NCBI GenBank assembly: GCA_013399855.1
Contig: VXAY01002880.1
Location: forward strand, 565,004 to 629,003
Direction of reading: 5' to 3'
Source: Oxyruncus cristatus
Lineage: Eukaryota; Chordata; Aves; Passeriformes; Cotingidae
Length of the DNA: 64,000 nt
In this document: in pieces, positions 12,031 through 49,440 of the stretch
Numbering within the stretch: the stretch's first letter is position 1
Layout: each line of letters begins with the position of its first letter
The notes under the pieces: model-generated
Database searches by the model: none
Told to the model about the DNA's origin: nothing
What the model saw: only the letters and a program-made list of their open reading frames with translations
Position numbers and translations under genes: made by a program

Positions 12031-12081
12031 CAGTAGATCATAAAACTCTAAGGAGTTGAACGAAGGTTTTCTCAGTTCTAC
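12031..12081 (-). CDS. Exon of unidentified minus-strand gene (51 bp)
   Basis: The acceptor has a long pyrimidine run (ttcattttttgttcag) and the donor is CTG/GTAAGTG, close to consensus. The frame encodes VELRKPSFNSLEFYDLL, is in phase 0 at both ends, and is the only open frame of the three. It follows the phase-0 exon at 19770-19814 across an intron of about 7.7 kb and precedes the candidate at 5959-5991. The family is not recognised. The strength here lies in the sites and in phase agreement, not in any motif. Confidence 0.5.
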
Positions 12082-15000
12082 CTGAACAAAAAATGAAATT
12101 CAGCCCTTCCAGGACATTTTAAATGAGTTCTGGTAGAATATGCATTAGAAAACAAGTATCTCTTGAATTTGCAGCTAAAAGACTTCAGAATAATTGGTTT
12201 TTTTTTTCTGACACTAAATTAAAATAACATTTTCACTATCTCATGAAGTTAATGTCTACAACTCCTTCTTCAGGCTATTTTAATCTTTTCTCTGTCCCCT
12301 GGGTAGCCTTTTTTTCAGGGAAGGGACTGGGCCAATGTCCTATGAGGTTGTCAGAAGCACACTAACTTATTTGGATTTTGGATCCATTTAAGGACTTTGT
12401 CTTTGCTCAGTGAAGAGACATTCAGGAGATTCTTTCTTCTGAGACCCTTTAGTGAAATTGTTTCTTGTGTATTTTTTCAGTGCTCTCTAGAACTTCATCA
12501 TCCCCCATTTATTTACTATCCTCTCTTAGTACAATTTCTATCTACTGCTCTAACAAGGATACTATTGATGATATCCTGGACACCATCTGCCACCAAAATA
12601 GTTAGAGTGACTTTCATCCATTCTGCTTGAAATTACCTTTTATTTTAAATCACTCACAGAATAGGCTAACTGGTAAAGTCTTGTGACTATTACTTCTGGT
12701 AAGTTTTGGCCCATAAAAAAGAAAATAATTGCTAACTTTGCTGCTTGAGTTCACAAGTAGTAATGACACAGAACACTGGTAATGATTTTGTCATTTGTCC
12801 TGTATTCTCAACATTAATTACTCAGCTTTTCTGTCTATGCCTTGATTATTTTCACCGTAACTTGGTTAAAACAGGCACATTTTTGAGGAACAAATTCATT
12901 TCCACACTTAGTAGTTACATGATGACGTATTCCTTGTGAGAGGGGCTAGGTCTTTTAATTTCTTGTACCACCACAGGGTGGCTGTGGTGGGATGTTGAGG
13001 CAGCTGAGTACCATTTGCCTGGGTGCAGTGGTACCCAAGACCGGACTAGGGCCTGTGAAAGGTGTCATACGTGGGTAGATTGCTATTGTCACCAGATCTG
13101 CTGTGTTTCTCCTCTGACTCCTGGATCACTCCTGAGAAGGAGTTTTTCCAGAACAGGTACAACACATCACAGACAGCCTGTGATTTCTGGTTGAAGGCTC
13201 CTTATGTAGAACATGAAAGATGTACAATGATAAACTGACCCATTCTCCAAGATAACACTCACTGTCATCTGTCTCAGATGAAATCTTGAATCCTTAGGAG
13301 AAAGATACCATCCATAAGGCCTTAGGTATCTGGCACAGACAATAATAAACATTAGCTGAACTATACCTGCTAATTTTGTGCATGTTAGCTAGCACACAAA
13401 TTTGCAAGAAAAATACTACTACTTATATGTTAATCATTCACATGCAAGTCAGTACATTCCACCTCATTTTTGTTCAGAGCCAATCCGTGGATACATGCAG
13501 CAGCTCAGTTGGCCTAAAATTATTCAGCTTTGTGCCAGAGTCCTCAAAGAGAATATTACAAAATGGAAATAAAAGGAGATAATCGGTCTCCAAAAAATGC
13601 AGTGTTTGTGGGTATATCAGCAAGCTCTGACAAAGGCCCATCAGCTTACGTAAGGTTCTGAGAAAATTGCGGCTTTTGTCCTAGAATAGCTTTTTGGAAT
13701 GGAAAAATGAACTATGTTCATCACAGTTCAGTTATTTTTAACCAATATTTTTATTTGGAGGTGTTGCAAATGCAGCCAGAAGATGAAACTCTCTGTCTCC
13801 TATGCTTATTTGTAGGGATATATGAATAAATTCTCTGTTGCTGGAGTTTTTCACATGGCTTTCTGCGAAGAATAAGCTCTAGTCTAACAAATGACCTTTT
13901 GTTGATTTATCCTAGAACTGCATCCTTTCTTTCAGCTGAGTGCTATATGGTAAATCAGAGGTTTAGCTCGTAGAAGGAAGCCACACAGGAATCTGTTTAA
14001 TTCACCAAGGTCATAAGCTCACCATATGTGGCTGCACAGAGGATTTTTTTTTTTTTTCCAAAGCTAATTGGGCTTAGAGCTAGGCAAGTGATTACACATC
14101 CTCTTAATCACAGGTAAAGATGCATTTCAAGCTGGGAATCACGCCTTTATACCTTCTCTTACACAGTGTTTTTTTCTGCTAGAGCTGCTACTCATTTCCT
14201 AGACTGGCATGGTGCCTTCTTGTAAATTAATTGAGGACTTGCTGAATAGCAGAGATGTCAGTCAATTATGTGTTTATAAAAGAAACCTGCATTTTAGTAT
14301 AGGTACCAATTCATTCTAAAGAGCTATTCTGTGAGTGTAGAACCAAAACAGATACACAGTGACCTTTCTGAGCTGCAAACCTTGATACCCCTTTTAAAAC
14401 TGCCACTTTGCTTACCTTAAGAAAGACTAAAATAAATTTCAGGGAAATACATACTTGCAATCAAGATAGATTTTGCTCTTGGTTTTGAGTTTACAACACT
14501 TTGGTCACTAACAGATTTTAAAAAGTCAATGCTATTTGTAAGAAAATGATTTTGACATTTTCATGATGACACTTAATCATAACTTAACATGATTTAAACA
14601 GGTGGCCAGGTGTACCATCCCAAGAATTAAATTTGTTGAAAAGAAGTAATATACAGATTTTTTCATGCAAGTGCCCTCTGAATTTTTTATTCAGGTTAAA
14701 GGTGATTTGAACAAATGGAGGAATTTAATAAAGCACTTTTCAGAGCTAATAATTAGCCCCATTGTGGAGTGTTTCATAATGGGAATGGTAAAACATGTTA
14801 TGGTCTATTTTTTAGAACATTTTGATTTTAGTGTCACAAAAGATGAGACCTACTGGGCTATTTCAAAAGTGACAATGTCCTTGGTAACAAGATTCAATAT
14901 GTGAATTAAGGATTATGTAAATCACATGGGAAGAAAGAGTCTGCAGCTGAGGTACGGTCTATTACACTGCAGCCGCTGAACAAAAATTATGATGGTTTTG

Positions 15001-16438
15001 GTCAGAAAACAGTCTGGGAAGAAAGATGTAGAAAACATTTGTGGATTTTAAATATGAAAACACATTTACTTTTGCTAAGTAAATTAGTCTTTATAAAGTT
15101 CCTTAATATCTGAATATTGACTAATAAATCTGTGGTATTAATTCTGCTTCCTGGCATGAAAATATTTCTTATCATTGAAAGGGCTCTTGTTTTCTTGTAA
15201 AGTGAACCAAGTTATTTGCTGAGCTTTTTCAGCAAGCTTACTGGTGAGAGACAGGGTAAGACAACCTGACAACTACTCTGCATTCCTGAGTTAAGAGTAC
15301 AAATTCTTGCTTAAGTGAAAATGTCCCCGTGGTTCCCAATGATGATGCTATTGTTAATGTAAAAAAGGTATATTTCTCCTTTTACTCTTCATTTTCATGC
15401 TTCTAGAACTGAATCTTTTGGGATAAGGGGCCAGTTCCTTGCCTTATTTTTTCACCCTAAATGCCAAAGACTTAGACTTATGTGTCTATTTTGAAGTTAA
15501 AGGTATTTCAGAGGCTTCAGAGTTGTTATTTTGCATACACTTAAAACTATCACTAAAAAATATCATGCAAGATGAAGTGAATGATGCTTAATTTGTTCTG
15601 AGTTTTATCTCAGGTCTAAGAGAAGAATACAGCATCCAATCATAAAAGAGTTTGTTTTTGGAGACCTGCCAAAACAAAGAAAAGAGGTGCTAGCAAAATC
15701 AGACCTTTCACATGAGGTTTTCCTTGCTGTGGCTGGCTCAACTTTGTTGTTTGAGATGCTCGCTCAGAAACAGGAGACATAGTTCTGGCTTCCCCTCCTG
15801 TTATTTTCAGCCTCTTTGCAAGTGTATGCCTTACACACCAAGGTGGATGAATAGCCTGCTTAGATGGAGGTATTATTTTCCTTATGACAAAGGTCTTTAT
15901 TCCCTTCATGTACTGAAAACTGGGTTTAAAAAAACCCAATTAATAAAAAAGCTCAGATTAAAACCAATTTCACCTAATAACCCAAACACAGAGTTTTGAG
16001 TACATTTTTAACAAACTGCCTTAATAAAATGGCAAGATACTTATAGATAGAAATGCCATGGTTTATTACTCTATCTAAAATTGAAAATCACTGTCTAACC
16101 TCACACTTAAAGCAACAGCTGGGAAGCTGTAACTTGCGACAAACTAATATTACACAGTGGGAAGCAACGCAAGAGCAGGAGACATTCCTCTGAAAAATGG
16201 CAACTACAAGAGACAGAATGACTTTTTTTGGCTACCAGTAATGATCATTCTGGCCAAATGCAAACTGCGCTGAACTAGAAACATTGTTAAGAGACTCTTT
16301 TAAAAAAGGTACTGCTTCAACTGCACGGTTATTATCTTCCTTTTCATTCCTTTTTTTGTAATAAATGGGGGGAATAAATGTGTTTATACTTAAACGAAAA
16401 ATTTATCTAAAAGAGAAAATTATTTAAACACAGTGAAG
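12082..16438. other. AT-rich stretch, probable intron
   Basis: It includes a GC-richer patch at 12960-13160 with an imperfect CCACCACA...TGTGGTGG hairpin, and a poly-T run near 14043-14057. I see no repeat family here. Apart from the weak candidate at 13263-13292, no exon is supported. Confidence 0.35.
13263..13292 (-). CDS. Weak candidate micro-exon (30 bp)
   Basis: On the minus strand, a pyrimidine-rich acceptor (ggtatctttctcctaag) and a donor GACA/GTGAGTG enclose 30 bp reading DSRFHLRQMT in phase 0 to 0. It would fit between the exons at 19770 and 12031 without breaking the frame. A second frame is also open and the segment is tiny, so chance is a serious alternative. Confidence 0.2.
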
Positions 16439-16500
16439 TGGGTTTTTTGGGGGGGGTTGGTTTTGGTTAGGTTTGGTTTTCTACTGGTTTTGGTGAGTGT
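16439..16500 (+). repeat. G/T-rich low-complexity tract
   Basis: A run of nine G is followed by GG and GGTT-type units. The tract sits where the 3' tail of the antisense CR1 should be, so that tail is either lost or replaced. Confidence 0.7.
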
Positions 16501-16509
16501 ATGTAAGGC

Positions 16510-16692
16510 ATACAACCATTGACCTAACACTCTCAGATCCACCACTAAACCATGTCCCCAAGCCATGCATGCTTGTGCTTTAAACACCTCTAGGGATGGT
16601 AATTCAACCACTTTCCTGGGCATTCTGTTTGAGTGCTTGACTACCTTTACAGTGAAGAAATTTTTCCTGCTATCCAGCCTAAATCATCCCAA
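16510..16692 (-). mobile_element. Antisense CR1, first half (host of a nested insertion)
   Basis: It reads as reverse CR1 3' sequence: 'accattgacctaacact', 'ccactaaaccatgtcccc', 'ctctagggatggtaattcaacc' and 'gaagaaatttttcctgc'. It breaks off at 'cctaaatcatccc' and resumes at 17224 with a near copy of those bases, so both halves are one older element. Confidence 0.85.
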
Positions 16693-17227
16693 GAGAGGTA
16701 ATTGTCCCTCAGTGGGGAAGCACTGGTGTGGCTTCACTTTGTGCAGCTCTGGGCACCACAATATATGAAAGCTATAAAGCTATTAGAGAGCTTCAAAAAG
16801 AGGGCTACAAAGATAGTGAAGTGCATAGAGGTAAAACCATACAAGGAGTGGCTGAGGTCACTGGGTCTGTTCAGCCTGGAGAAGAGGAGTCTGAGAGAGA
16901 CCTCATCACAGTCTACAATTTCCCTGTGAGGGGAAGAGGAGGTGCAGGCACTGGTCTCATCTCTGTGATGACCAGTGACAGGACACAAGGGAATGGCCTG
17001 AAGTTGTGACAGGGGAGGTTTAGGTTGGATATTAGAAAAAAGTTCTTCACCCAGAGGGTGGTTGGGCAGTGAAACAGGCCTCCTAAAGAAGTGGTCATAG
17101 CACCAAGCTTGACAGAGTTCAAGGAGTATTTGGACACTGCTCTCAGGTACATGGTGTGATTCTTGGGGCTGTCCTGTACAGGGCCAGGAGTTGGACTTAG
17201 TTTATCCTTGGATATTCTATGATTCTA
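16693..17227 (+). mobile_element. CR1 LINE 3' part inserted within another CR1
   Basis: It runs in sense orientation through 'tgtgcagctctgggcacc', 'ctgttcagcctggagaagag', 'gaggtttaggttggatatta' and 'aaaagttcttcacccagag' to the tail 'attctatgattcta'. The 5' end is truncated as usual for CR1. It is complete at its 3' end and splits the antisense CR1 on either side. Open frames in this block are CR1 frames, not host genes. Confidence 0.9.
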
Positions 17228-17440
17228 AATCTTCCCTAGTGAAACTGGAGGCCATCTCCTCTTCTACTTTCACTTGTTAATTAGAAGAAGCTTTGTTGCC
17301 CTTCTCTGGATATACTCCAGCACCTCAGGGTCTTTCTTGTACTGCATGGCCCAAAACTCAGTGCAGGACTCAAGGTATGGCCTCACCAGTATGAGGACAA
17401 GGGGACAGTCACTGTCCTAATCCCACTCACCGCATTTCCC
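17228..17440 (-). mobile_element. Antisense CR1, second half
   Basis: It continues the element broken at 16692: 'gaggccatctcctctt', then after an internal deletion 'ttgcccttctctgga', 'actccagcacctcagg' and 'tatggcctcaccagt'. It fades near 17440. Confidence 0.85.
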
Positions 17441-17642
17441 TATTACACATAATTGCTGACTCTTAAGGTTTTAGCTCATGTAGTTAAACAGAATAGGATT
17501 TTAAACAGATGTTTGTATGCCCATGAAGGGTTACCTGGAAAAGCAGAACACTAACCTGGAAGTGTCTTCACTTACACCAGTGTCAAAACAACAGCCCATG
17601 GGAATGGATGAGAACACTATGTACTGTGTTTCTTTAGAAAGG

Positions 17643-17711
17643 GAGACAAATGTAGACAAATTTAGAGACAAATTTAGACAAAATTTAGACAAATTTTAGA
17701 TTTAGACAAAT
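17643..17711 (+). repeat. Short imperfect tandem repeat, unit about 10-12 bp
   Basis: About six or seven units of the type AGACAAATTT follow one another, with small length differences between them. The short frame across it is not considered coding. Confidence 0.85.
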
Positions 17712-19769
17712 TACTGGTTACTAAGGTTCTACAGATATTTTTTGCAGTAAGTAAATAATGAGAATTGAAATTTCTGCATCCCTATCCCTTTTCCTATCAT
17801 TACCTAGGCTGTAGTCTATCTCCCCTTCCTGACTAGTTGGTGAGACTGGAGCAAGAAAGATGATGGAGATCTGCAGCTAGAGAGAAAAAGAGTGGTGATC
17901 GTGATTTCAAATCAGCTAACTGCCTTCTAAGTGATATGCTTGATACTTGAGTGTTTCCTCTTGTCTTTCAGTAATGCCTCATTGCAAAAAATAAGCTCCA
18001 AGGCTCAAATAAGAGAATATTTTCTTGTTAGCTTAGGAAAATATGAATTAAAAAAAAACATTGTGAAATGTGCTATAGTTCAAATAATATCACACTGACT
18101 CATATAGCTAAGTATGGTAAAAAGATTTCCCTCAGCTGACAAAAAACAGACTGGAAGTTAAATTTCTCCTCTTTCTCTTGTTTAATTTCTTAAATAACTA
18201 ATTATCTTTATTACAACTTCTAACTAGGGAATGGAACTGTCTAATGAACTAAATACAAACCTGAAGAAGTTGGTTTTATTCTTTGTGTTTTCAACAAGTA
18301 GCAATTTGAATTGTTTCACTTTCTAATTCTCTCCAAGGGAAGACATGAAATCCAGGTTTGGATTTGTTTTTTTTTAAAAAAATTTTGAGCCTAGGAGAAC
18401 ACTTAAATGGAATTTTGCCTATTAAATATGAAGTGCTCAAGGCCTGTATCTCCAGATAAATACTTCTTTGTAGGATGTCACAAAGCTGAAAACCTTCTGG
18501 GCTGTTTCTGAAGAGAAATGCAAATCTGACCATTGCTTTAGGAGCAGAAATGTTAATCCAATGTGAAATTAGGAAATCTAAAGTAATTTCAGTCTTCTGG
18601 TTATAGAGCTGCTACCTTTACTCTTCACTTAACCTTTTTTCTTCTGTATCTGTGGCAAGGAACTCTGGAAACTTTGAAATTTCTAAACTGATCCAGTCTG
18701 GGGATTTAAGATTTCCAGTTTTTATGCTAGGACCCTTGAGAACTGTACTTAGATGAGCTGTAGTCCTTGGCTCCGACTTGTCTCAAAACTTTTAAAGTCA
18801 AAAAATTCTGTGAGTAAAAATGCTTATTCTATTGGAATTTCAAAAATAGAACATCTCTTACTTTTGCTACTCTTTTGAAATTTCTGTTCTGAGGAAATTT
18901 TTTTCTAACCCATTCTAGAAAGTAACGTCCTTATAAGAAAAGCAGAAATAGGGTCAAGCAGTGACACGCTCACTTAGCATTTCAAAACCTAGTGGTAGTC
19001 AAAGAGCCAAGGTATGCTCTAATTTATGTGAAATGGAAGGGAAGAAATTGTGCTTAGTGTAGTAATACAATTGTAACAATATCAAAATATAATGACCACA
19101 ACATAAAATTCTGTACTTTATCATTTGTGTCGTAGTTTTCTCTAGGTGTTACTTCTTTGAGTACTTATGCTATCAGCAGTCACATTGATGAATATCCTAC
19201 ACTGATAAAAGTTAGAAGAAATGTTTGATATTTATTGAGAAAAGGCACCAGGACAGTGAGATACCACAGACAGATTTGCTGATGTAAGTTACTCATGAAC
19301 CCTCTTTCTGCAGCCATTTCTGATCACATTTACTTTGTGGAGTTCTTTGGTCTGGGGAAAATGCAGAATCTTTTACTACAGCATAAAGTATGAGACGAGT
19401 CACTTAATGATCTATCACAGCATCTTGCATTAAACAAGAGGATTTACTTAGCTGGGAACTGCTTGAGGTACAGACCTTGTACTTCTGAATCCCAGTTAAA
19501 TGCAGATTTATTTTTTTTTTCTCTAGATAGGTGGAATTCTGTTGACTTTATCAATTAGAGAGATTAACTGTTATAGCCATTCCGAATGAATTATATTCTA
19601 CAATAGTTTTCTCAATAATTTCCTCTTAATAACTGCTCTCTTCTGCATTGATAATGAGGATGACCTATGATTGCAATTATGTCTCTCCTTTGGCCATTTA
19701 ATGACAACACCACAAAGGAGAAAAGTACTGCTGCTATGCTGGAATAGAAAGTTATTCTAAAATACTTAC
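17712..19769. other. AT-rich stretch, probable intron
   Basis: Nothing recognised. A 27-bp minus-strand open segment near 18865-18895 has a donor-like CAAAA/GTAAGAG and a modest acceptor, but it is too short to support. Confidence 0.4.
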
Positions 19770-19814
19770 GATCGAACATTTTCTGTAGGTAATCAACCAT
19801 TCAGGAACAATTAT
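19770..19814 (-). CDS. Exon of unidentified minus-strand gene (45 bp)
   Basis: The acceptor is pyrimidine rich (actttgatctttctcag) and the donor is ATC/GTAAGTA, nearly consensus. The single open frame reads IIVPEWLITYRKCSI in phase 0 at both ends; the other two frames have stops. It follows the exon at 26048-26165, which also ends in phase 0, across an intron of about 6.2 kb. The longer minus-strand frame at 19612-19800 runs through the donor into intron and is not the product. Confidence 0.5.
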
Positions 19815-21990
19815 CTGAGAAAGATCAAAGTTTTAATTAAAGCAATTTAAGACATACTAAACATAATTTGTCACAGAACACACAATGAGTATCATGACAC
19901 TTGTGAACAATGTTCTCTTGTCACGTGCAAATCACAGAAATAAGCACTGTTGAGGTAATTTCTGCTTCCACTGAGCTAATTAAGCATTTTGAATTCTATC
20001 TTGATTCCCCTCAAAACAGCATGTTCCTCAAAGTTTATTAAACTTTTGGTTTTGTGCTTAGCCTACTGGTTGCGAAATAAATTCCCAATTACCATAAATG
20101 TGGTAACAAAATCCACATTAATATATGTGTTAAGTTTCTGTGTTGTGTGGCACAGATGAGAACATATGAGAACACTTTAACCAGTGTATAGTTCACTGTA
20201 GCAGTTGACCTCTTATAAGAAAACAACTTTTTCTTAATAAGGGAAGATATGTATAAAATCAGTCATTGTAGGTGTTTTGCATGACTGAACTATATATTAA
20301 AAAGCACATTTTAAAATATAATCAAGACCAGAAACTATTCAATGAAGCAAATGACAACACTTATATAGAATCAAAACAAAACCCATAAAATTTGTGGAAC
20401 AATGTCAATCTTAGGGTAGAAAAATGAATGAGACATTTTTAAAGTCCTTTCAGCAGTCCCACGATTTTACTGAAATAAGCAAATTAATGGAATCTTAACT
20501 AATGCATGTTCACTATGTGTTAGTGACTGACCAGAAATAGATAAAAAGAACAATTGTATTTTACAAGTAAAATAAAAGTTTCAGGAATCAAAACAGGGAA
20601 ACCAGTATAGCATGCATCAAGTTGCTGAATATGTATGAGTTTTCTGATGTCTGCAGGAGAAATTATTTCTGCTCTCCTACTTCATAAAAGTGATATGTGG
20701 TGTGCATAGAGAGACTGATCGTAGCATTCCAGAAATTCCTTTTAACACCTTTCTAGTATTTTAAGGGGTACAATATTGAGTGGGGTACTGTTAATATCTC
20801 CATTATACAGATTAAAATTGAATCAAATAAAAACTAAATGCCTTGCTCTTAACTCCTGACATTATTCATTACTATGAGTACAGCTTTGTCCCCAGGATCA
20901 AATTCAGTATGGTGTGAAGTAATACCTATTTCTTTACCCATTTGTCTCAACTCTGGATGATCGATTTCCTAATGGCTGTTCAGAGCACAGACCAGAACAC
21001 TGTAAGTCAGCCTGAGGATGAAGAGCTTTTGCCACAGTTCACTGATATCTATTAACTTCAGGAGGTTTTAGGTCAGATACCATTCTGTATAGAAGATTTG
21101 TTAAGTAGGTACAGCCAAGTTTTGTCTGTCTCTGGCATAGCAATCAACTTTTGCATAAACTTGGGAGCTGTAAAGACTTCCAGGAACTCCTTGCATACCA
21201 TCTTTACCAAACTAGATTATGAAACTCACAGATCTCAAGTTAAAAATCTGTTATTAATGGTAAGTTACTGTAAAACAATAAATCATACACCCCCAACTTT
21301 CAATTGGTGAGAGGACAAATATACGTGATTTACACACTTCGTGATGCCATCAGGGCATACTATATAATGAAGTCCAGTAGGACTGTCAGAATACATATCA
21401 AAAGAAGGGATAAGAAATGCAGTTATACCTCATTCACTATGGTATAATTCTCTAGCACCTACCATGTAACAGTAGGCAATAAAGAGATAATAGGAAGTGT
21501 AGATGTTTCATCTTTGTTTCATCAGTCTATTCCAGAATCACAGGTAAAATCTTCTGGGTTTTAGTATTTTCTGGTTGTTATGTTTCTTCATATAAGAAAG
21601 ATAAGACTATGGCATTCTTAAAATTAACCTATCCTTGCTATTAGAGGTTTTCCAATTCACACTTCAGCTGCTCCTTGTCTGTCTGTTGTCTGTTCTATCT
21701 ACTTTTTCTTTTTTGCTTCTGTCCCAGAAACACGGATTTGCTTAGACACTACATGGTTTAAGGAGAAGAGTGTGAAATGACCAAAGCGTTATTCACATTT
21801 ATTTTTCCCCCATACACACTGCACTTTTGTGCTAAGACAATATGTAAAACAACAAATTTTATCATGCTGCTTTTGCCTAGGAATATTCTCCTTAACCGAG
21901 CAGTGTTCACTGAAGTAGTGGAGACATGTTCTGCAAGAACAATTTTGAGAGTCTTTTTTGTTTAACAATAATAAAAAGAATACAACCAGC
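19815..21990. other. AT-rich stretch, probable intron
   Basis: No repeat family or exon recognised on either strand. Confidence 0.4.
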
Positions 21991-21991
21991 T

Positions 21992-22612
21992 GTCCATGAG
22001 CCACTAGTGTGCCCTTGTGACCAAGAAGGGCAATGTATCCTAGTGTGCATTAGGAATAGCATTGCCAGAGGTCAAGGGAGGTCTAGTGAGGCCACACCTG
22101 GAATGTCACATCCAGTTCTGGGCTCCTCAATACAGAAAAGACATGGAGATCCTCAAGTAGATCCAGTGGAGGGTGACAAATATCATTAAGTGACTGGCAC
22201 ATCTCTCTTCCGAGGAAAGGCTGAAGGAACTGGGCATGGTCAACCTCAAGAAGAGGCAACTGAGGGAGGACCTTAGCAACGTCTGTGAGTAACTAAAGGG
22301 AGAGTGTCAAGAGGATGGAGCCAGGCTAACTTGGGTGGCACCAAGAAACAAGACAAGAGGCAATAGGCAGAAAGCGATGCACAGGAAGTTCCATCTGAAA
22401 ATGAGGAAGAACTTTATTGTGCAGGTGACCATGCACTGGAACAGATTGCCCAGAGAAGCTGTGAAGTCTCCCTCACTGCAGATTTTCGACAACTGTCTGA
22501 ACACAATCCTGTGCAATGTGCTCTGGGATGACCACGCTTGAGCAGGACGGTTGGACCAGATGACTCCCTGTGGTCCTTCCCAACCTTAGCCATTCTGGGA
22601 ATCTGTGATATA
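21992..22612 (+). mobile_element. CR1 LINE, longer 3' part, sense orientation
   Basis: It starts 'ctgtccatgagccactagtgt', passes 'gcattaggaatagcattgcc', 'ggccacacctggaatg' and 'gaggaaaggctgaaggaa', and ends near 'cattctgggaatctgtgata'. At about 620 bp it is the longest clear CR1 piece in the window. It is degenerate, and the frames inside it are remnants or antisense shadows. Confidence 0.9.
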
Positions 22613-23889
22613 CGAGTACATTTATAAATAAATTATGGTTTGGGGTTTTTTTACAATGTCTCACTGATCTGGAAGCAAGATGATCAACATAAATGCTTTT
22701 AATTATCTTCTTTCAAGCAAGTTTACTTTCTAACATATCAGGGAGGTTTTTCGGTTTTTTTCTAATTGGTAGCATGTTTTCCTCACCAAAGGTAAGGTTA
22801 ATGTAAATCCTTCCTCTATTTGCATAAATAAACATTTTCAAGTTAGCTCTACAAAGTATAAGCTTCATGTTGTAACAAATATTTTAATTATTCTTGTATG
22901 TACCCGTCAGGGGTCAGATCTGGGGAGAGGAACCCAATGGAATTGCATGCAGGAAAAAAAAATTTTTACTACTCAGCATATCATTTACGGGTCAGTGGTA
23001 AAGAAAGGTGCCAAGGGAACATATTCTGCGTATAGTCATGTTTATTGGGTAAAATGTTATGCTAGTTTTAAATTAAACCTTTTCATTTACTCTTTTTAAT
23101 TAATACAGTTGTAATACTTATTCTTGAGACATCTGAGCATTCTGCAGATCTTAAGGCCGTATATCGTATATCTGTGATCATTTGGTGGCAAATTTAAATG
23201 AACTTGTCTAACCTTATTGTTTATGTTAGTGGGCTTTTAAGTCTTGATTACATCCAGGATATCTACTTGAGACAGCCTAGGTACTTTGCATGCTCTGCAG
23301 CAGATATTTGATGCTGCAGTTCCTTTCCTCAATCAGATTAGTACTGCTGTATTTACTAGCCTCTTTGTTGTGCTGCCTAGCCCAGCACAGAGCAAGTTAA
23401 TATGTCATGATTACAAGTTTAAACAGTATTCAAAGGATTTCCATATGCCTATATTTCTGGTGTAGTGCAGGAATTAATATTATTAGACTGTACTACTGCA
23501 GTTTTTGAAGATAGATGATGGAATTTTACCTAATTATTCTTGCACAAAAAAAAAAAAGGTGATGAGTTATAAAGGGAAACAATAAAAAAATGAATAACCA
23601 TTTTCTGTCCTTGATAGGTAACTCAAAGAAGAATTTATTTGTTAGAGGGTTCCCATTAACCCTAGTCTTGCCTGTACAGTCTCAGGGAGTTTTGAATGTC
23701 TTCAGATTTTACAGTATTTACAGAGTGTTCCTGTGGCTCTACTTTCTTTCAACAGTTAATCACCCTTTGAATTCAAAAGAAATAACTGTGTCATTACAGT
23801 TAATATCAGCATGACAAATTTAACTTCTGAACTTTTACAGTTCTCAAGACTAACAGTGTTGTTTCCACTGCATGAACTTAATCTATCGT

Positions 23890-24235
23890 AAGCGTGGATC
23901 TTATCACTCTCTACAATTACCTGAGAGGAGGTTGCAGTGAGGTGGGAGTCAGTCTCTTCTCCCAGGTAACAAGTGACAGGATAAGAAGAAATGGCCTCAA
24001 GTTGCAGCAGGGCAGGTTTACACAGGCTGTTAGGAAAAAAATCCTTACTGAGAGAGTTGTCAAACATTGGAACGGGCTGCCCCAGGAAATGGTTGAGTCA
24101 TCATCTCTGGAGTTATTTATGTAGATGTGGCACCTGAGAATATGGTTTAGAGGTTGTCTTGGCAGTGCTGGGTTAACAGCAGGACTCAATGAAATTGGAG
24201 GACTTTTTCAACCTAAATTGTTCTATGATTCTACA
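23890..24235 (+). mobile_element. CR1 LINE 3' end, sense orientation
   Basis: Typical order: 'atcactctctacaattacctg', 'gaggaggttgcagtgaggtg', 'ggcctcaagttgcagcag', 'cattggaacgggctgcccc', and the tail 'ttctatgattcta'. It is 5' truncated. Open frames at 23894-24189 on both strands belong to it. Confidence 0.9.
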
Positions 24236-26047: not shown

Positions 26048-26165
26048 ATTTTGACTAGTAATTCCATCTGTATCATGTTTATCTGTGAAAAACTCTATTA
26101 GCTTTTTCTGCATTTTCAGCAGCTCTTCACATGACAGTTGTTGAACACTTTGTAGTCTTGTAAGC
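26048..26165 (-). CDS. Exon of unidentified minus-strand gene (118 bp), best single exon
   Basis: The acceptor is cagtttctttcatcttaag and the donor AAT/GTAAGTG. The exon begins with one base that completes a codon (phase 2) and ends in phase 0. The other two frames stop early. It encodes LTRLQSVQQLSCEELL, followed by KMQKKLIEFFTDKHDTDG and then ITSQN. The first part has the charge and leucine spacing of an amphipathic helix. The DKHDTDGITSQN stretch resembles a degenerate EF-hand loop: acidic or polar residues at positions 1 and 3 and isoleucine at 8, but no glutamate at 12. Its first base joins GG from the exon at 32118-32165 to make glycine. The protein family is unknown to me. Confidence 0.55.
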
Positions 26166-33860: not shown

Positions 33861-33913
33861 AGGCTTTGTTTTTTAATCACTTTGTCTAAGCCTTCCACTC
33901 CCTCCCATGACAG

Positions 33914-37000: not shown

Positions 37001-39900
37001 ACTTTTTGAAATAAAAAAGTAATTTCCCCTGTTCTTATTCACGACATGCTTTACATGTATAACAGTTCTATCCAGGAACTTCCACTGGTTGAGTCATTTC
37101 ACAGAGTATTAGGAATGGGAAAGCACAATTATGCATCTGCCATGGTTCAACCCCAGCAGGCAATTAAGCCCTGGACACTCACTTACTCATCCAAGGATGC
37201 TTTTGATTAAGTATCCTTTCCCAGAACAGAAACCTTAGTAAGCACAGTAAGTAAAGTTTTTGCTACTATCAGTAAAGGCCTCCGATTGTGTTTTGAATTG
37301 ATAGTGTAGGATCTCATAACCTGTCTGAATTTTTTGGCCCAAGGTCATTTTAGTTTAACAGCTAACGACCATGTGGATTTTATCTATTATTTTTTCTTCA
37401 AATGGTATTACTTTATTCTGTAACATCTACTACAAATAATATCCATACAGATAGCAGTAACAGTTACTTACTATACCTAGAATAAACTTTGGCCCTAAAA
37501 AGCTGTATAAGAGGGCAATCATTAAATGATAACTGAGGTGTCAAGTCTGTCAGCACTTCACCAGCGGTGAATTATGGATACAAATGTGAGTTCATAAAAA
37601 ACCTCATAGTTTTGGGGGTAACATAAAGAATAAATAACTACCATCTAACTCATGTTCAACATGTGATACATAACAAAGTCAAAAGTAAAATGAGTTATTG
37701 TCCTGCGCAGACAGTATATGAAGCATGTCATTAAAAAACAGAACCTCAAGTGAACATCAGGTTGATGAGAAGGAAGTATGAACATCTTGCTGGTCTTTGC
37801 AAAATGAAGAAGAAACACCCACAGTTAAACACCAAACTGCTCCTTGTGAAGGCTTCAGGCTGGTGAAAACTCACTGTTATCCCTCCCTGCCACTCCTCAT
37901 TCAGCCTCGGGACTTGAAGGAGCAGTGGAAAGGTGATCATCATAGCATCAGAGACAAAGGTGAGTCAACAAAGAAATAAGTTTTATTGTATAAGAACTTT
38001 TAAATGTAACCTTGTTAGTGAGAGGTATATTGTCCAAATTATTTGCTCTGTGTTAGTATCAGTGTACCTGACCTAATAATAAACTTTTGTGTCTTTGTTA
38101 TGCCATTAAAATTTTTGATTGGACTAGTAATACATTGTTGGCATTACTTGAATGTAGTTACTTCTATGCTTGTCCATCACAATATTTTGACCATAATAAT
38201 ATGGCCACACCATAATTTCAGAAAATGTTCATAATCTGAGAGCAATGGGGGACTACATGGTGTTGGCCCAAATAAGGGGAATCTTTGCAAGAAATGTACT
38301 TAATTTCTAAAAATGTGCATTATCTAGTTAAATTCTATTAATTTTTCTGAGAATCTGAAAGTTAATATTCACAACCTGTCTCACAATTAAATTATTTAAA
38401 ATATCAATGCTTATATTTACAAACTAATGTTTTATGTCAGTTGTTGATAACAGTATTTAAGCAATTGTAACTTTACATAATTGGGTCATCTGCTAAAGTG
38501 TTAAAAATTCAGTAAAACACAGAGCAGAGATGTTCCAACATATCTTTTGAAAATAAATGGCTGAAAGCATGCGTCTGAGGTGCTCGAGTACTGTATTACG
38601 TACTCTGATATAATGACGAAAACTGAGTCTTGAGTGATATATTCAAATAATTGAAGATACTGTCTCTCAATCCTTTCTCTAAAATAAAAGATAAAGATTT
38701 ATCAGACCCTCTTAATCTTTTTCATAATACAGCTCCTTACTCCCCAAACTAGCAAAAAAGGACATATAAATAAATATAATTAAAAGAGATATATCACTAC
38801 TTACAACTGATGACTAGTCCGTTCAGCTCTCACCCAATCCATTAAAACCTTTTCTGTAGCCTAAATTAAGGAAAAATGATGCACCTACCAGTAACCAAAA
38901 AAATATTTAAGGGATTTAGAGCAATTTTATAATCACCTATTCAATCAATGGCACATGGAATGAATTCTAGGAAACAAGAATGAATGATTTTTTTTAAAAA
39001 AGAAAAAAAAAAAAAAAGAGAGAGGTCTATCCTTGAGGCTAGAGAGTCAAAAGAGCTATCAGCTCATAAGCAGATGACTGACCAAACTGGCTCCAGAGCT
39101 GCTAGCAAAACTGCTGAAGGAGTTTGCCAGCCAGTCAAGGAGTATTGCTGGAAAAGAAATCTTTCCTGTTTAGGCAGCTGTACCCTATGATTCAAAGGAA
39201 TGGGGTAAAAATTGCTTCAGTCAGATAAGAAAAACATTATCTATTCAAGATGCTTCACCTAATTAAGGAAAAAAACATAGAAGCATTCTGAAAATACCAT
39301 TGTTCGGGAAAGCAGTGGTGCATCAGTTTTCAAGTGTCTATAGTATTCTCTCTTTAGAGGTATGGAATAAATGTGCTTTTCTCAGGTGACAGATGTTGTA
39401 ATAAAACACAAAGAAGCTGAGAATGAAAAAAACATCCCATTACTGGAGGGAATAGATTCTAAAAAAGATACTTCAAAGCTATTATTTTTTAGTTTGTATA
39501 CTGTCACTTTATCTCTTGATTTTGGGGTGATATAAGTGGATAAAACCCTTCCATTCCAAACCTTTCAAGCCAAGGTGTTTTCATATCCTGACATAAGCTA
39601 TTGAACTGTTCACAGGTCATGAAACAGGGTGACATGACTGATAACACTCAACAACACCAGCTGTCGTTCAAAAGCTCACACTAAATAAAAGAGAAAAATT
39701 CTCTTCTCAAAACCTATATTAAAGTACTGTTTGTACAATTGGCTCAATGTTCCTTAAGAATGCATATGATACAAATTACATAAATGGCCTTATATAAACT
39801 GTCCTAATTAAGGTTTACTAATTGATACTGAATTTAATTAATCTAGATTTAAACATCAAGCTAAAAAGGCAAACAGCTTTTTCTATGTTGATTTACTGGC
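34019..39900. other. AT-rich stretch, probable intron
   Basis: It holds no recognised repeat family. Points of note are the 133-codon minus-strand frame at 34480-34881, which has no splice or start context, and a possible donor AAAG/GTGAGT at 37960. Confidence 0.4.
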
Positions 39901-40315
39901 TCTGATGGGTTGAACTTGGCTGGCTGATGGGTGTCCACCAAGTTACTCCCTCAGTCTTCCTCCTCAACAGAACAGGGGAAGAAAATAAGATGAAAAGCTC
40001 ATGGGCCAAGATGAGGTCAGGGAGATCAATTACTGTCATGTGCAAAACAGACTAGACCTAGGAAATTAATTTAGTGTATTGGCAATTAAAAAGAGAGAAG
40101 GATAGCAAAAAAAAATCCCCAAATTAAAACCAGCTGCTCCCCATCCCTTCCTTGTTCTCAGGCTCAGTTTCACTCCTAACTGTTCTGCCTTCTCCCTTTG
40201 AGGATTGCAGGAGGATGGGGAATGGGAGTTGTGGTCAGTTCATGATGTATTGTCTCTGTTGCTCATGCTCTTCTCCAACAATGGTGATACCATGGTGTTT
40301 GCTGCACACTACCTG
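39901..40315 (-). mobile_element. LTR fragment, minus orientation, same family as 59.9 and 62 kb
   Basis: The plus strand starts with the reversed LTR end ('tgatgggttgaacttggctgg'), then 'ggtgtccaccaagttactccc', 'gaaaataagatgaaaagctcatggg' and 'cagttcatgatgtattgtctctg'. This is the 3' half of the long LTR seen at 59912-60725. The remainder is missing or too decayed past about 40315. Confidence 0.75.
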
Positions 40316-41025
40316 TTAAAGGAGAGGAATTAGATGAAGTCATTTTAAACCGCTGGAGAAAAATTCATCCTCACATGACACCATTCACATGCGGTACAAC
40401 AACCACCCCAATAGCTTCTAGAAAGGCAGTGTGACAGGTGTAAACACTATAGGAGACTTCTGAAAAATACTAGGGAAAGTTTCTTGATGCATGCAATCCA
40501 TGTGCTGGACACATTGCTCAAGAATGAGAACTGATTGGTGATGTGCATTCTTAGAGAAATGAGTAAAAATAAAAAATAGTCGAATTACTACCATAAATTC
40601 TGGAGAGCAGATTGTGGCTTGTTTAGAGATCTGTTTGTTGAGATTTCATGAGAGTCTGACCTGAAGAGTAAAAGGGCCACGAAAAACTGGTTGATTTTCA
40701 AGGTTAATATCCTCAAAGCATAGAATAGTTCATGCTGACATAGCAGGAACTTGATCAGGCAAGGCAGAAGGCCCGCACAGGGAATCTCTGACTGAACTCC
40801 AGTGCAGGAAGGAAGTGCAAGGACTGTGGAGATAAGGACTGGCCACCTGTGAGGACCACAGAGATACTGTTCGGCTGTGCCGGTTTGGAGATCCAAAAGC
40901 AACCGCTGAGCAGGAAGTAGAACTCTAGAGAGAAGAGAAGTGAGGTCCTCTGGAAGTACATTGGCAAAGAGAAGGCAAAGACAAATTATCTTATTTTGCT
41001 TTAAATAGAGAAGCTAAGGGAAATC
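40316..41025. other. Unassigned GC-richer stretch
   Basis: About 40740-40900 is richer in GC than its surroundings and carries minus-strand frames (40588-40967). I cannot assign it. It may be a decayed part of the LTR element beside it. Confidence 0.3.
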
Positions 41026-41029
41026 TTGT

Positions 41030-41352
41030 CTTCATCTGCTGAACGGGAGGCTGTAGTGAAGACAAATCTAGATGGTTCTCAGAGGTCTACGGTAGTACAA
41101 GAGGCAATAGGCACAAGAAACAACATGAGAAATTATGATTAGCTATGAAAAACACCTTCTTACCATGGGTGTGTTCTAACACTCCAAGGAATTGCGCAGA
41201 AAGGCTGTGAAATCTCAGTCCTTGGAGATAGTGAAAACCTGGGCGAAATCATCTTAAGTGGACCTGTTTAAAGATAGGGATTACACCTGATGACTTCCAA
41301 CTTATTTTGTTAAATGTAGAAACAAATTGTAATTGTATGATTCTGTGATGTC
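41030..41352 (+). mobile_element. Highly diverged CR1 3' end, sense orientation
   Basis: The order of CR1 marks is still visible: 'gggaggctgtagtgaag', 'acaagaggcaataggcac', 'ggaattgcgcagaaaggctgtg', 'ttaagtggacctgttt', and a tail 'tgtatgattctgtgatg'. It is more eroded than the other copies, so probably older. Confidence 0.7.
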
Positions 41353-44300
41353 ACAAGAGTACAGAAATACTCCTCCCACTTTAAATTCTGTCTTGGTCTT
41401 AATACACTTCAAAAATTCAACAAAAGTTTGAGGTAGAAACAGGTAGGGGGCAGGTTATACCTTAGCATTACACTACACATTAGCTACATTAACACAGATA
41501 AATTGTTAATTGCTCAATCAACACAGCTAAATTCTCATCAGAATTAATTGATGTATATTGATGTACTGGTGGTTTTTTTCTTAAAGTACCTGTAATGGAT
41601 AAAGAACTTTGGGAAAAGCTGTACGCTTTTATTGCTATTGCTTTGCTTTAATTGGTTTTGACGTTCTGAAACTCTAATAGAAAAAAAATAACAGTTAAAT
41701 AATGACAGTCCTAATTATTCAGAACACAAATTAGTTAAATTGCACACAGAAAAAAAAAAATTAATAAAAGACACTTTCTTTTCTTTGTGTGGCTGAAAAT
41801 AACCCCAGAAAAATCAGGAATCCTTGGTTTTAGTTGAAGACGGTAATTTTTCAACAACTTAAGATGTAAACAAGATCTAACCAAGGGAGGTTTTTTATAT
41901 GAAAAGTTCACCAGTTGTTGTAATCCAACACAAAAAGCCCAAGATCTTAAAGATTAGCAAAAAAGGATATATTTATATCATTAATGAAAACTTGCATTTT
42001 AGCCAATCCTGTGTGATACTGCTGGTTTGTGTGCCAGCACTAGGTATTTATGCACATGAAATTAGTTAGATGTTTTTAATTTTTTTAGACTGGGCCTATA
42101 AAAACTAATGAAGATCACATATTGAGGTGAAGTTAGGAGTTTTATCTCTGTTTTCATCTAGGTTTATACTTCTGAAGAGGTGTTGAAACTAGTGAAGAGT
42201 TAAACATACTACATTCCTTACAGCCATGGTAAAAGTTGTTATACTTTGAGGCTGTGATCTACCAAAAGGGAACTCTGGGATTACTTCAGGCTGCAATATC
42301 TAACTGATCTCTTGCTGTTGGTATGCAGTTAGTAGACTTCACAGTTATTTGATAAAGGAATAAAGGCAAGCAAGGATAAACCCAGGGTTTCTTTACTGGT
42401 CTGCAGGTATGAGTAGACCCTCCTAGCATTAATCTAAGGTATGCTTAATGATAGGCAGTTTACTGAAAAGTGAGAAAAACTCCACTAAATATTCCACCAA
42501 AGTATTTCAAATGTTTCAACTACAAAAGATTTCCTATCAGCACATCCACTCCAGAAGTCAGCTACTGTCAATCTGCCAACAAAAAACCCATCTTTACTTC
42601 CATAGTAAACTGTTGTGTGATTAATGTTATTTTTATAACTTCTAAAAGTAATGTTCAAATGCATTTTGTATCAAGAATAAGTATCCTTAGAAAGTGAACA
42701 TTACATAACTTATGGCCCATAGATAGGTGACCTATATGACACTCCATTACTGATTGCAGTTTTGACACTGCTAGACTTATTTCCCCAGCTGGATTTCTGT
42801 GTGTCCTGTAGTTCATGCTTTTTATATTTAAGCCCTTGAATATATATTTTTTTACTTTGTGATTAAAGATTTAGTTAAAGAAAAGGCTTCTTTAAACTGT
42901 GTACCTTCAAGAGGTAAATTTTCCCTGCCTAATTAAATTATTCTAATTAAATTATTCAGAGCCCTTGTTCCCCAGTAAGTGCAACCACTTAACAGGGAAA
43001 GGAATTCTAGTCACAAAGATGGCAATATTCACATATGTCTGTATCTGCTGTTGTTGAAAATATGATTCTAAACAGTAAACTAAATGTTAGTTCTGCCTTA
43101 TTTGCAAAACTGTAGTCCAAACTCTTCCCTAACATCATTGCCAGAGAATTTTATTTTATTTTTTTTTATTTTTTTTTTTAAATTTTATTTATGTTCATGT
43201 ATCAGTACAGGAAGGAACAAGTCCTGCTGGCATTGCCACTACTGGTTTACAGGGTCATTTTGTCAGTGTGTCAGCTCTTGCATCTCTGTTTTCCTTTTTC
43301 CTACTTCATGTTGACAAGTCATTTTTCATTTCCTGTTGCTAGATGTCCAGCCTTGAGTCACCCGAGGGATCCTTATACCTGGAGGTACATAAGTACTGCA
43401 TTGGCATCCTCTGGAGAACCTTATCAATACTGTGCTTGGTCAGTATGACTGATGACTACAGATATAACTGTCATCATACAGCTGTTGTTTGCAATTAGGA
43501 AATAAAATGACCTTCATTCTGACCTGTAAGGTATTATAATATGCAATGTTTAAGTTGTTTCTCTCTTATGGTCACTGATTAGATGAAAGTCTATTGTAAT
43601 TCTTACAGTTTAGTTTATTCCTCACTTTCCTTCACACTGAAAGTAAGAATTTAGACTGCTGGAAGTGTTCTATTCATTAGAGGGTTTTTTTAATTTGTTT
43701 GTTTTCATTTCAGTCCTTTTTCACTTAGGGTTTTAGCGGCCAATTTCAAGGACAATTGAGTATTATTTTTTTTTTTTTGTAACTCTTACATGACTTTCTG
43801 TTTTCAGCTTTTTTTAGAGTGATGCTTTTGAAATAGCAAGCTGTCATGTTCACTTGAAGTGGACTTTGATACAAGCCAGGCAATATAACAATTCTCTGGA
43901 ATCTTGTTTCAATGCTTTTCTCTGTGATTATAGTGTTGTCTGCCACAATTCTCATGTTTCACATTCATACAGTTGGTTTGGGTTAAGAATTGTTTAATTG
44001 CTTCAATCTAACAGTCATTGTCATTCATTCTTTCATGAAAGATCTTTTAAAGTAATAAAGATGAAACAAGTTCCAGTATTTCAATTGGAGCTATACTGAA
44101 TGGAGATACATATAAAGTTTACAAATGCTAGATTTTAGTAGTTCTAGTCAGAATGTTTTATTCATCATTTTCTAATGGGTTTAGGAATTTTTGGTGCAAT
44201 TTACTTTATCTCTTAAATACACAAGCATACCTTTTCAGTTTCAGAATGAAATCAGATGATATAACGAACAATAAGGACTTTAGTAATATTTGCATATAAG

Positions 44301-47300
44301 GATTTTTGAAGATAAACTATCAATCTTAAAGGAAAACACCAAGATTCCCAAGTAACCAAATACTGAAATTACTTTATTTTAAAAATCTGCGAATAATGTT
44401 ACCTAAAATGAAAATTAAGGGAGGAAAAATATAGGCATTATTTCTATTGCCAAGTGAAAGTGGCAATCTTGAGACCCAGTTTCTGGACCATTGGGTGAAA
44501 ACTTCTTACAAATACTTTCCTAGCATTTAAAAAGGGTCACTGACCTCAAGCTTTCAAAGCTGCCGTGTTGTTACGTGGGCTTTAAATTAAGGCTAAAAGA
44601 GGAAAAGAAACTGTCAAATTGCACAAAAGAATTGACATGATCTCCCAGCCCACAAAATAAGCAAACACTGAATGCATTAACTATCTTTTATTTTAGAAAA
44701 AAAGGATAAATATTAAAAATATAAAATGTCTAGATAAAGAGAAAAGCAAGATCAAGAAACTGCATTCTACAATGGATCTGTTCTAATGTAAATAATAACT
44801 TTGTGATAGTTTTGCACAAATGGATCAGCTGTATGTAGATGTAAAAAGCTTTGTAAAAATCATCATAGAAGCAACTATATTAAAAGTATGGTTTATATCA
44901 GAAAGGGGTAAAACAAATTATGGAATCTCATTGGAAGTACTTTGGGTTAATAACAAGAAAAGAAAAACAGAACTGAGGGAGAGATTTTTTTCCTCCAGGT
45001 AACTTGAAATTACCAGTTTACTATGTAACTAACCTATTAGTTGCTAGCAAACAGACTCAAGCAAACCAAGAAGTTATGTTTCTGAATAGATGTCATTTTC
45101 ATATTCAGGGAGACAATTATTAATTAAATGTAATGTAAATCATGGCACTGATTTGAAATGCAAACTACGTTTTTTATTAGAACAGATTTTGTAAAAGTCC
45201 TGGGAAAGATTATGGTTTATTACCATAGAAATTACCTTTTTAAAGAAATAATACTGTGTTCCCCTGAGAACCATTAGCTGATGTCTTTAATTAAAAAAAG
45301 TCTAGGTACTCCAAAAGAAATTGTAATTGAGGTCAAATATACTAGAAAACCTTGAACACAATCTATGCCAAAAACAACCTTATTCTGACAGTGATAATTT
45401 TTTCCACAAAAAATTAGTCCCAATACTTTTAAGCTGTACAGAAGGATTTTTTTCATGTTTGATTAAACTCAATTGTATTAATTACTCCAATGTGTGTCTG
45501 CGTATACACATCCTAATAATAGATGTTCACTGTGACAGCTATACTGCATTCTCATCCTAACCATGATTTTGTCAATTGTCTTGCCCTCAAATAAGTTAAA
45601 AATGAACTGTGACTTTCGATTTTGTGACACAATCTAAATTGGTCACAGAAGACATCCAGAGAGAGTCATCTGCCTATCAACATCTTTATCTGTCTGTCAC
45701 TGCAATAAGTAGGCATTCCTCGTAAGGTTTAGGAGAAGCATCTATGCTATCCCATTTGGATCATCTTTGCTGCACCTCTTAATGACTAGTTATGTTTCTA
45801 AACATCAATGAAGTGTCACATTACTTATAGGTATTTTTAATTGGCTATTTTTGTTTCAATAATTTTATTTTGTTAGCAGCTGAGGAAGGAGACACCGGTG
45901 AAACCTTGATGATATTTTTAAACTGTTAATATTTTTTTGAGAGTAGTGCCTGATCTATGATATCAATATAAGCATTTAGACTAGATACTTTTTCTAGCTG
46001 TATCCTTTCAGGGTGCAAAGTTCAGACAAGAGAGTTTGTTAAAGGTCATTTAGTTATGATAGAATCTGGCAGTTCGCAGCTCAACAGTTGACCACAGTGA
46101 GCGATACTGATAAAGCCTGATACAAGGAGTCCCTTGTGTGTGGCAGCTTTTCCTGGTTTAGTTTTATTTCTGCATATTTCCTCGTTAATTATCACCTCTA
46201 TTTAGCTACAGCAAACAAGTGGAAAATGAGATTGTTCAAACGATCTCAAACAAACATATGCAAGTCTGATTTTATCTTGATCTATCTTATATCTTTTTAT
46301 AACCCTTGTTTATGACAGAAGCTGATATTTTACCATTTTTCATAGCCAAACCTTGCAACAGAGAGGTGATTCTTTGGATGTCTACTAAAATCACCTAGAA
46401 ACCATAATTTCATTGGAAAATATGCAGTTCAAATAGTTATTTTAATTTATATTCTGGCTGACTGTATTTTGTACACATGTGATCTCAATAAGGAGTTAAG
46501 CAAATTGCTGAATGTCTGCCATGAGGACTGATTCATTTGCTGGTTTGTTTGAGCTTTGATTTTTGAATTCCTCAGCTTTGCTATATTGGGTGGCTTATAA
46601 AATATTAAAAAGTTATTTGAATATTCATCAAACTGGGCTACTTGCTCTGGTGTAAACATGTCAAACACTTCCATGCAAAAACTTTCTTATTTTTAACTGT
46701 GATGCCTTTAAATTTGGCATTTGCTGTCTGAATTGATCTGGAAAACATGAGTATCTTCAGTTGCAGTTTATCTAGATGGTTTCATTAAACTGTGGACATC
46801 ATAACTCTCTAGTGAGAGCACATTTCTGATGTCATGTAAAATTAATGGCAGAGCCACTATTAACTTCAATGGAAGCACAATTGTTCCTCTGGTGCTATGG
46901 TCACTCGTGAGGCTGGACCTCCTCTGTAGAGAAGTGAGCAAAATGAGCCACTCATAAGTTACTTGGCAGTATGATCTTTCTGTGCAAAAGGTTAAATTTA
47001 ACTGCAGTGCTGTTTCTTTTGGTAACTTCAAAAGGAAGTTTGGATGTGTTTGTTGGTGGTTGGGTTTAGTGCGCACTAAGGCTGAGGTTTATCGTCTTTT
47101 GGTATTAAGTGATACAGGTCTAAGTTTACTCAAAGAAGGTTGTGCACTAATGACAGGTTGTCAGTGTATCCACCAGTGTGAGGGTATCTGGGGTGAGAAG
47201 GCTCAGCTGTTCAGGGACCTGTTCCTGTTTTCACTAATGGAAGAGTGACAGGCTTGTTCCTTGGGTCACCTCTCATGAGTGTTTGCAGCTTCAGTGTTCT

Positions 47301-49382
47301 CCCACCCTCCTTGTTTCATTTTGGCTGAAGGATTGTTTTAAAGGACTCTGAGTGTGCTCTTGGGAAATTGAAAGTTCATTGTGTTGTAAGTAGGTTAAAG
47401 ACAGCTATTATCTTTCCTGGGTTATATCTACATACTCTGTATTTGAGGACAGCTCTGAGAGCAAGATGTGCCTCGTTGGAGGCTGAAGAATAAGGTTTCT
47501 ATGATGAAGAGTGAGAGACTTTCTTTTAAACATTGTTCACTGGGGCAAATGACTCTGTAGTTGTGCATTCTTATGTTTTGGGGTTTATTTAAACTGGAAA
47601 TCTAATTTCCTTGGGTATTACTTCCTTACAATTGATTATACTTTCTTGTGCAGCTTCTGTGACTATCTCATGAGAATGTAAGGGATAATTTGAAGGAAAT
47701 ATATCATTAATCTTTCAAGAATTATTTTAAGCTCATGGCTTTTTGTATATTGTATGCTATGTTAAAAAAAAAAAAGCTTTTATTTAAAAAGAGTTTTTTC
47801 ACTGATTTGGATAAATTGATTTTTTTATAACATTATGTTAAAAAATTCACCTCTTAACACAAATCTTAGGAGGATACACTTTAGAAACCATGATCGTATT
47901 GAACATTTTTACTGAAGGTTTTAGAAAAAAAAAATCACAATAGTATAAAACAATTATTCATTTTTGCAAACAATAATGTATGAAAATATAAAGCTTCAAA
48001 ATGACTGATGACAACACTGAATCATTTCCAACGATGAACATGACAATGTAAAAAGGTCAACATTGTCTTTTCAAATTACGTAATAAAAATGTTTTGATTT
48101 GCCTTTTTTTTCTCATTATTTTTAATTCTTGCTGTAAATGTGTTCCTTTGTAATCTTGGAAAAGTTAGTTAAAAATGAAAGTTATTTTTAGTTCCCTGTG
48201 CAAGATCCCATGGTGAGAAATTATTGGCAGAGTGAGACACATAGGACTACAACAGGAGGCATGAGACATGTTTTGCTTTGCCAAGGAACAGAAGTTATTA
48301 AAAAATATTAATGAAAGCTCTTCACCATTTCAAGGGGCGACAATGTATTCCTCAAACAAGAAAGAAGTGATCTTTCCTTTTTGCCTTTTTTAATTTTTCA
48401 CTCCTCTGTACTCTTGGTCTGCCATTTTCCAAAATCTCTCAAGAGTTTTCCAGAAAAGGTTCAGTGTGGCCAGTGTACATAATATAGAGAAAGATTCTAA
48501 TCCACCTCACAACCTCATTTTCTCATGCACTTTTTTTATTTTATTTTATTTTATTTATTCACTCTTCTTGATATTCATAAAATTATTTTCATGTTTCTTG
48601 AAATGAATGTTCCCCCTGATGAGGTTACATTACAAATATGTGGAATATACATTTGTACTGCTCACTATTGTATGTTACACTTGAAAAATAGTCATGTCTA
48701 CTCTCCAGTTTCTGCTTTCTGCTTTTGACTTGGTAGCATTGTTAACAAACCAAGCTTCAAGGATAGTGCCATGAAAAAATTCAGACCATCTCCTCATGAT
48801 ATCAGTGTTTGGATCCAGGCACTCTGAAAATCCATTTCCTTGTGCTCTCCTTATTGGAAAAATAGAAATTGGAATTGTGTGGGTCTTTTTCCTCCTTTTA
48901 TTTTATTCCTTTATTTGAATGGAAGCTTTATCATCCTCTTACATTGATATTTCATCGCAAGATTTTCTGAAACTGTTCTTTCCCCCAGAGAACAAGAGGG
49001 GAGTACAATCTTTGAGTGTAGGCAATGTAGTTTGGTGCAAAAGACAGGGAAAAAAAGACAAGGCAAAAGACATTGACCTTAGTTTTGTGAGTGTGGATTT
49101 TTCCTGAGCACCTGAGGAAGGATAACCCTCCTGTGTAACATGATGGCACGGAGACACTAGATCTACAAGTACAACAGGGTGATCAGCTGCATTAATGTTC
49201 AAAGTACAGAAAAGAAATAGAAAGAACTAACAAACCAATGTACAGTCCAGTTGAATATTAAAGTGCAATAGCAGAACACAGAACTAAACTTATCAAACAC
49301 TTTAAAGATGAGCATATTCATTTTCTTACCAGTTATTCATGATAGAAACTGTCTTTTCTAAAAAAAATTGTTACTGACTTAC
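41353..49382. other. AT-rich stretch, probable intron
   Basis: Long and mostly featureless. It includes an A/T run at 43149-43192, a CT-rich patch near 43300-43450 and a GC-richer patch near 47050-47300 that I cannot assign. No exon is supported. Confidence 0.35.
48531..48559 (+). repeat. (TTTTA)n microsatellite
   Basis: Four to five units of ATTTT follow a T run. Confidence 0.9.
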
Positions 49383-49440
49383 CTCAAAACAATCACTCTA
49401 TCCTCTGTAGATAAACTATCATCTGTAAGTCTTAATTTTC
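49383..49440 (-). CDS. Exon of unidentified minus-strand gene (58 bp), most upstream confident exon
   Basis: The acceptor (actttgctatatttcttaccag) has a long pyrimidine run and the donor is GAG/GTAAGTC. The only open frame starts with two carried bases (phase 1) and ends with AG (phase 2), reading KLRLTDDSLSTEDRVIVL. AG joins A of the exon at 32118-32165 to give arginine. The intron that follows is about 17 kb. The next exon upstream must end in phase 1. The candidate at 49880-49908 does so, but is weak. Confidence 0.5.

Follow-up and report, generated by a model that had tools for sequence, protein, structure and literature searches.

The two described systems closest to the locus analysed here are the ordinary vertebrate multi-exon gene and the decoy exon. 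According to the excerpted parts of one study (PMC3098058), the decoy exons within human introns exceed the real ones in number by an order of magnitude, an imbalance that lends weight to a chance origin of the exon-like series reported below. Like the decoys in those excerpts (PMC3098058), the present locus has splice-like sites flanking short open frames without other support, but the density of units with a GTAAGT donor on its minus strand exceeds that in the other DNA examined. With an ordinary vertebrate multi-exon gene it shares GT-AG sites, internal exons of 45-118 nt, a phase-consistent reading frame and the absence of any second copy found, whereas it differs in having no recognisable protein family and a weak coding composition, and in being known from sequence alone.

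The window, i.e., the whole stretch of 64,000 nucleotides under analysis (C846:565004-629003), belongs to a 1,037,108,819-base assembly, whose size, together with CR1-like remnants, suggests a bird. An earlier sequence-only reading had proposed five segments on its minus strand, each with an acceptor, a GTAAGT donor and a single open frame. All five were recovered where they had been placed, each of them with AG directly ahead, GTAAGT directly behind and exactly one frame open (from 49383-49440 to 12031-12081). Site quality, listed below as acceptor/donor bits obtained with vertebrate weight matrices, varied among the segments; the splice matrices, like the codon table and the amino-acid frequencies used further on, are approximations not fitted to the present genome.

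49383-49440, minus strand: candidate exon of 58 nt, KLRLTDDSLSTEDRVIVL, whose first 2 nt belong to a split codon and which leaves 2 nt; 5.6/7.7 bits
32118-32165, minus strand: candidate exon of 48 nt, KLHQGQTSIAEQTHI, with 1 nt in and 2 nt out; 5.2/7.4 bits
26048-26165, minus strand: candidate exon of 118 nt, LTRLQSVQQLSCEELLKMQKKLIEFFTDKHDTDGITSQN, with 1 nt in and 0 out and an open frame of 39 codons; 2.9/3.6 bits
19770-19814, minus strand: candidate exon of 45 nt, IIVPEWLITYRKCSI, phase 0/0; 1.8/0.9 bits, the poorest sites of the five
12031-12081, minus strand: candidate exon of 51 nt, VELRKPSFNSLEFYDLL, phase 0/0; 4.7/6.6 bits

Canonical acceptors and donors were present at all five proposed exons, those of the fourth (19770-19814) being weak. 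The claim that the phases agree at all four junctions (2/2, 2/2, 0/0, 0/0) also held, as the intron phases of 2, 2, 0 and 0 matched on both sides and the joined segments formed a continuous reading frame of 106 codons with 0 stops. Judged by eye, 26048-26165 was the most protein-like of the five and looked helical; it was also the top match in a protein search of the species' own genome (E 1.1e-19). The DNA around 49383-49440 occurs at one place in the genome. In our judgement the odds are about even that one ordinary gene on the minus strand, with long U2-type (GT-AG) introns, has most of the five segments as internal coding exons, and this is the explanation that we prefer.

The phase agreement itself carries less weight than had been assumed. 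The probability of chance agreement had been put at about 1 in 81, which is wrong because the five segments were chosen out of a larger pool of qualifying units. To qualify, a unit had to end at a GTAAGT donor, have an acceptor scoring 1.8 bits or more, measure 40-130 nt and be open in one frame only. Within the window, 7/16 GTAAGT donors qualified on the minus strand as compared to 2/20 on the plus strand, and an acceptor threshold of at least 1.7 bits, which lets in 19770-19814, brought the minus-strand count to 8/16; the thresholds for exon units and chains were set post hoc, after the five segments had been seen. When random phases were assigned to the eight donors (each with a single acceptor, so that donor 49383 lost its second one), chains of at least five exons arose in 28% of 20,000 trials and chains of at least six in 6.5%. 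The actual pool gave six phase-consistent chains of five exons, two of which are distinguished only by the acceptor that donor 49383 takes, as well as a single chain of six. This longest chain omits 49383-49440 and uses two other units in its place:

50338-50391, minus strand: rival exon-like unit, TTLPHLQRQKNKVSAIAE, phase 0/0; 1.9/3.7 bits
38805-38860, minus strand: rival exon-like unit, ATEKVLMDWVRAERTSHQ, with 0 in and 2 nt out; 2.5/1.4 bits

The second of these cannot directly follow 49383-49440, and more than one exact exon list fits. The estimate of 1 in 81 greatly overstates the evidence, and the argument from phase is weak. More widely, since the candidate pool has to be counted, matching phases at splice-like sites picked by hand are much weaker evidence than a factor of 1/3 per junction would imply. 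The randomisation and the several alternative chains speak for chance, by which the five segments would be decoy (pseudo) exons, which abound in vertebrate non-coding DNA, picked out of the larger pool since their phases agreed; we hold this explanation to be somewhat doubtful, though a serious contender. The six-exon chain further suggests that a real minus-strand transcript, coding or not, may have exons that coincide only partly with the five, which we consider unlikely. In such a transcript 49383-49440 might give way to 50338-50391 and 38805-38860, or further exons whose donors are not GTAAGT might lie between the five segments, and the introns would therefore be shorter than 6-17 kb. GTAAGT makes up only a minority of vertebrate donors, so a gene using it at every exon would be unusual, and this too fits a different exon set. 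However, the sites of 49383-49440 are far better than those of its replacements, with 13.3 summed bits as compared to 5.6 and 3.9.

The enrichment of units on one strand favours a minus-strand gene, with the reservation that it was tested post hoc. Half of the minus-strand GTAAGT donors in the window qualified (8/16), as compared to 20/145 in other DNA, i.e., the plus strand of the window (2/20) together with both strands of 290 kb of flanks (Fisher P 0.0016, post hoc). Qualifying units are about 3.6 times as frequent among the minus-strand donors as in the remaining DNA, which stands against a chance origin of the series. At an acceptor threshold of at least 1.7 bits, the longest phase-consistent GTAAGT chain comprised 6 units on the minus strand; on the plus strand it was 1, and none of eight 50-kb flank strands exceeded 2. 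A chain of 6 was reached by 0/250 order-2 and 0/250 order-4 Markov sequences, i.e., by 0/500 overall, which likewise argues against chance, and in an order-3 run a chain of 5 was reached by 0/300. The excess in chain length depends on the acceptor threshold: with at least 2.5 bits the minus-strand chain of 4 was equalled by 0/250 and 3/250 Markov sequences, and a threshold of 4 bits left a chain of 2, which 14/250 and 15/250 sequences equalled. Across 354 kb, the minus strand had 7 units with two strong sites (acceptor at least 4.5 and donor at least 6.5 bits) and the plus strand 2; among the 7, 2 look retroelement-derived by eye and 2 are copies of one duplicated unit.

Donors other than GTAAGT gave a mixed picture. 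Pooled, the other common donors showed no excess on the minus strand (27/194 vs 251/2006). Those scoring at least 0.5 qualified more often there (19/87 vs 124/983, the latter added up by hand from the remaining 13 rows), which would be expected if the transcript used an exon set different from the five. With a generic donor model (penalty 9.5), the best phase-consistent chain scored 65.2 on the minus and 60.9 on the plus strand, and the minus-strand value falls within the range of 41.8-69.3 for eight overlapping flank strands; the Markov mean was 30.8, and 65.2 was reached by 1/150 sequences of order 2 and 2/150 of order 4. By generic splice-chain scores the minus strand does not stand out against either the plus strand or the flanks, and equally good chains in both places are what chance would produce. 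Unconstrained dynamic-programming chains, a more permissive variant run over 264 kb with a penalty of 7, reached 333.8 on the plus strand as compared to 262.0 on the minus strand and were rejected as too permissive to use.

Upstream of the window, two further exon-like units were identified on the minus strand:

L018:1163-1224, minus strand: exon-like unit, (R)EIQKLLEILPFEQWLSAFRS; acceptor 8.5 bits, donor 8.7 bits
L013:9481-9555, minus strand: exon-like unit, SILMTYPPPSNSDYFNRLLPKRVS

The first has the top summed site score in the list of minus-strand units and recurs at 1296-1357 as part of a 133-base tandem duplication (L018:1163-1357, minus strand; C846:690166-690360), both copies having very strong splice sites. 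The two copies cannot be included in phase together, which leaves a duplication of recent date, mutually exclusive use of the pair or an artefact of the assembly. The L018 and L013 units each lie at one place in the genome, their phases are compatible with each other and with 49383-49440, and L013 is located between the L018 unit and 49383-49440. This fit is suggestive of a gene; two such agreements have a chance of about 1 in 9, with alternatives uncounted.

The composition of the joined frame leans weakly to coding and does not decide the matter. As compared to random open segments, its amino-acid log-odds were -1.4 bits (P 0.15) and its codon log-odds -7 bits (P 0.18). The summed amino-acid log-odds of the five segments gave P 0.07 against 593 exon-like candidates in the region, and against 474 candidates P was 0.09 for purine content and 0.07 for GAR-type triplets. 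GC content was 0.350 in the exons vs 0.321 in their flanks. Aspartate and glutamate account for 15/106 residues, with 6.6 expected from background, and alanine, glycine and proline for 6/106, where the background would predict 11.8 and proteins 21.

No homology to a known protein or domain was detected in the collections searched, in line with the earlier statement that the protein is not recognised. Pfam returned no family at E up to 10 for either the 107-aa join or a 154-aa join that included the two upstream candidates, and PDB gave 0 matches for the 107-aa join; the sole PDB match for the 154-aa join (2p35, E 1.2) was rejected as chance-level. Searches of a 5.8-billion-protein collection, which may not include vertebrate proteins, yielded 0 matches with the 107-aa query, with an X-padded version of it admitting longer proteins, and with the third exon within a 1900-codon frame. 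In the protein search of the species' own genome with the join, the matches listed included the five segments themselves and, up to E 10, a single other one on another contig (E 3.65), which was taken as chance; among these matches, a second copy of the candidate gene was not found. A text search of the literature gave no match for the candidate's peptide words, and we know of no vertebrate protein that the candidate resembles. That neither the coding measures nor the homology searches give confirmation is compatible with the five segments being decoys.

The proposal of one gene with introns of 6-17 kb stands in part: the excess of GTAAGT units on the minus strand supports it, whereas the phase argument is weak, the exon set is not unique and generic chains do not distinguish the strand. 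If the segments do belong to one ordinary minus-strand gene, this gene would sit in an AT-rich part of the 1.04 Gb genome, and the spliceosome would join its exons into the continuous reading frame, which would encode a charged, probably helical stretch unlike any described domain. The most that can be said of function is that this would probably be a charged, helical protein region. Transcription, splicing and translation of the locus are inferred, as are the exact exon list, any tissue of expression and any function. In 354 kb (C846 465004-819003), CpG observed/expected was 0.10-0.23 across 10-kb blocks, and no CpG-island-like stretch was present (300 bases, GC >52%, CpG observed/expected >0.6). 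Therefore the promoter may be a tissue-restricted one lacking a CpG island, or may be located further away. A more particular version of this gene, which we regard as improbable, would encode a bird-restricted or very fast-evolving protein of an undescribed family from tiny exons spread over >110 kb (from position 12031 of the window to the upstream candidate at window-frame position 125224), including a tandemly duplicated 62-nt exon whose copies cannot be included together in frame. If the minus-strand gene is real, one gene model of an ordinary kind would be added or completed.

Strand asymmetry was considered in addition. Along their genes, the vertebrates treated in the excerpted passages of one study have a positive TA skew on the non-template strand, bird data not being among these passages (PMC2927911). 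Between 12 and 49 kb of the window, the plus strand had a TA skew of +0.016 and a GC skew of +0.043, with neighbouring 10-kb blocks varying by several hundredths. This weak and noisy signal has the sign that fits plus-strand transcription and is the wrong one for a minus-strand gene.

The surroundings were screened for domains and RNA genes. Three-frame Pfam scans with X at stops covered 314 kb of the minus strand (264 kb plus 50 kb further upstream; window coordinates about -99999 to 214000) and found no domains beyond retroelement ones (reverse transcriptase and endonuclease domains and a single RNase H-like one), apart from one PIGA match (E 0.048) that was taken as chance. The corresponding scan of the plus strand was confined to the window, where about 49.5 of 64 kb gave no domain match; the last 40 kb (L029-L032) were covered by ORF and splice lists only. 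A tRNA scan and an Rfam scan at gathering threshold found nothing in the window. On the plus strand, a single unit within the window combines a strong acceptor with a strong donor, at 37905-37959 (PRDLKEQWKGDHHSIRDK; acceptor 6.5 bits, donor 8.3 bits). Remnants of retroelements occur in L006 (minus strand, about 6536-6862), L007-L011 and L024-L028, with matches to RVT_1 down to 2.7e-16 and to Exo_endo_phos_2 at 5.3e-07; some of their translations, judged by eye, are presumably closer to an RTE-type element than to CR1. GC-richer stretches are located at 59966-62918 of the window and in the flanks near window-frame 115, 140, 215 and 244 kb; some of these share translated phrases, as seen by eye, and the stretches are probably copies of a dispersed repeat.
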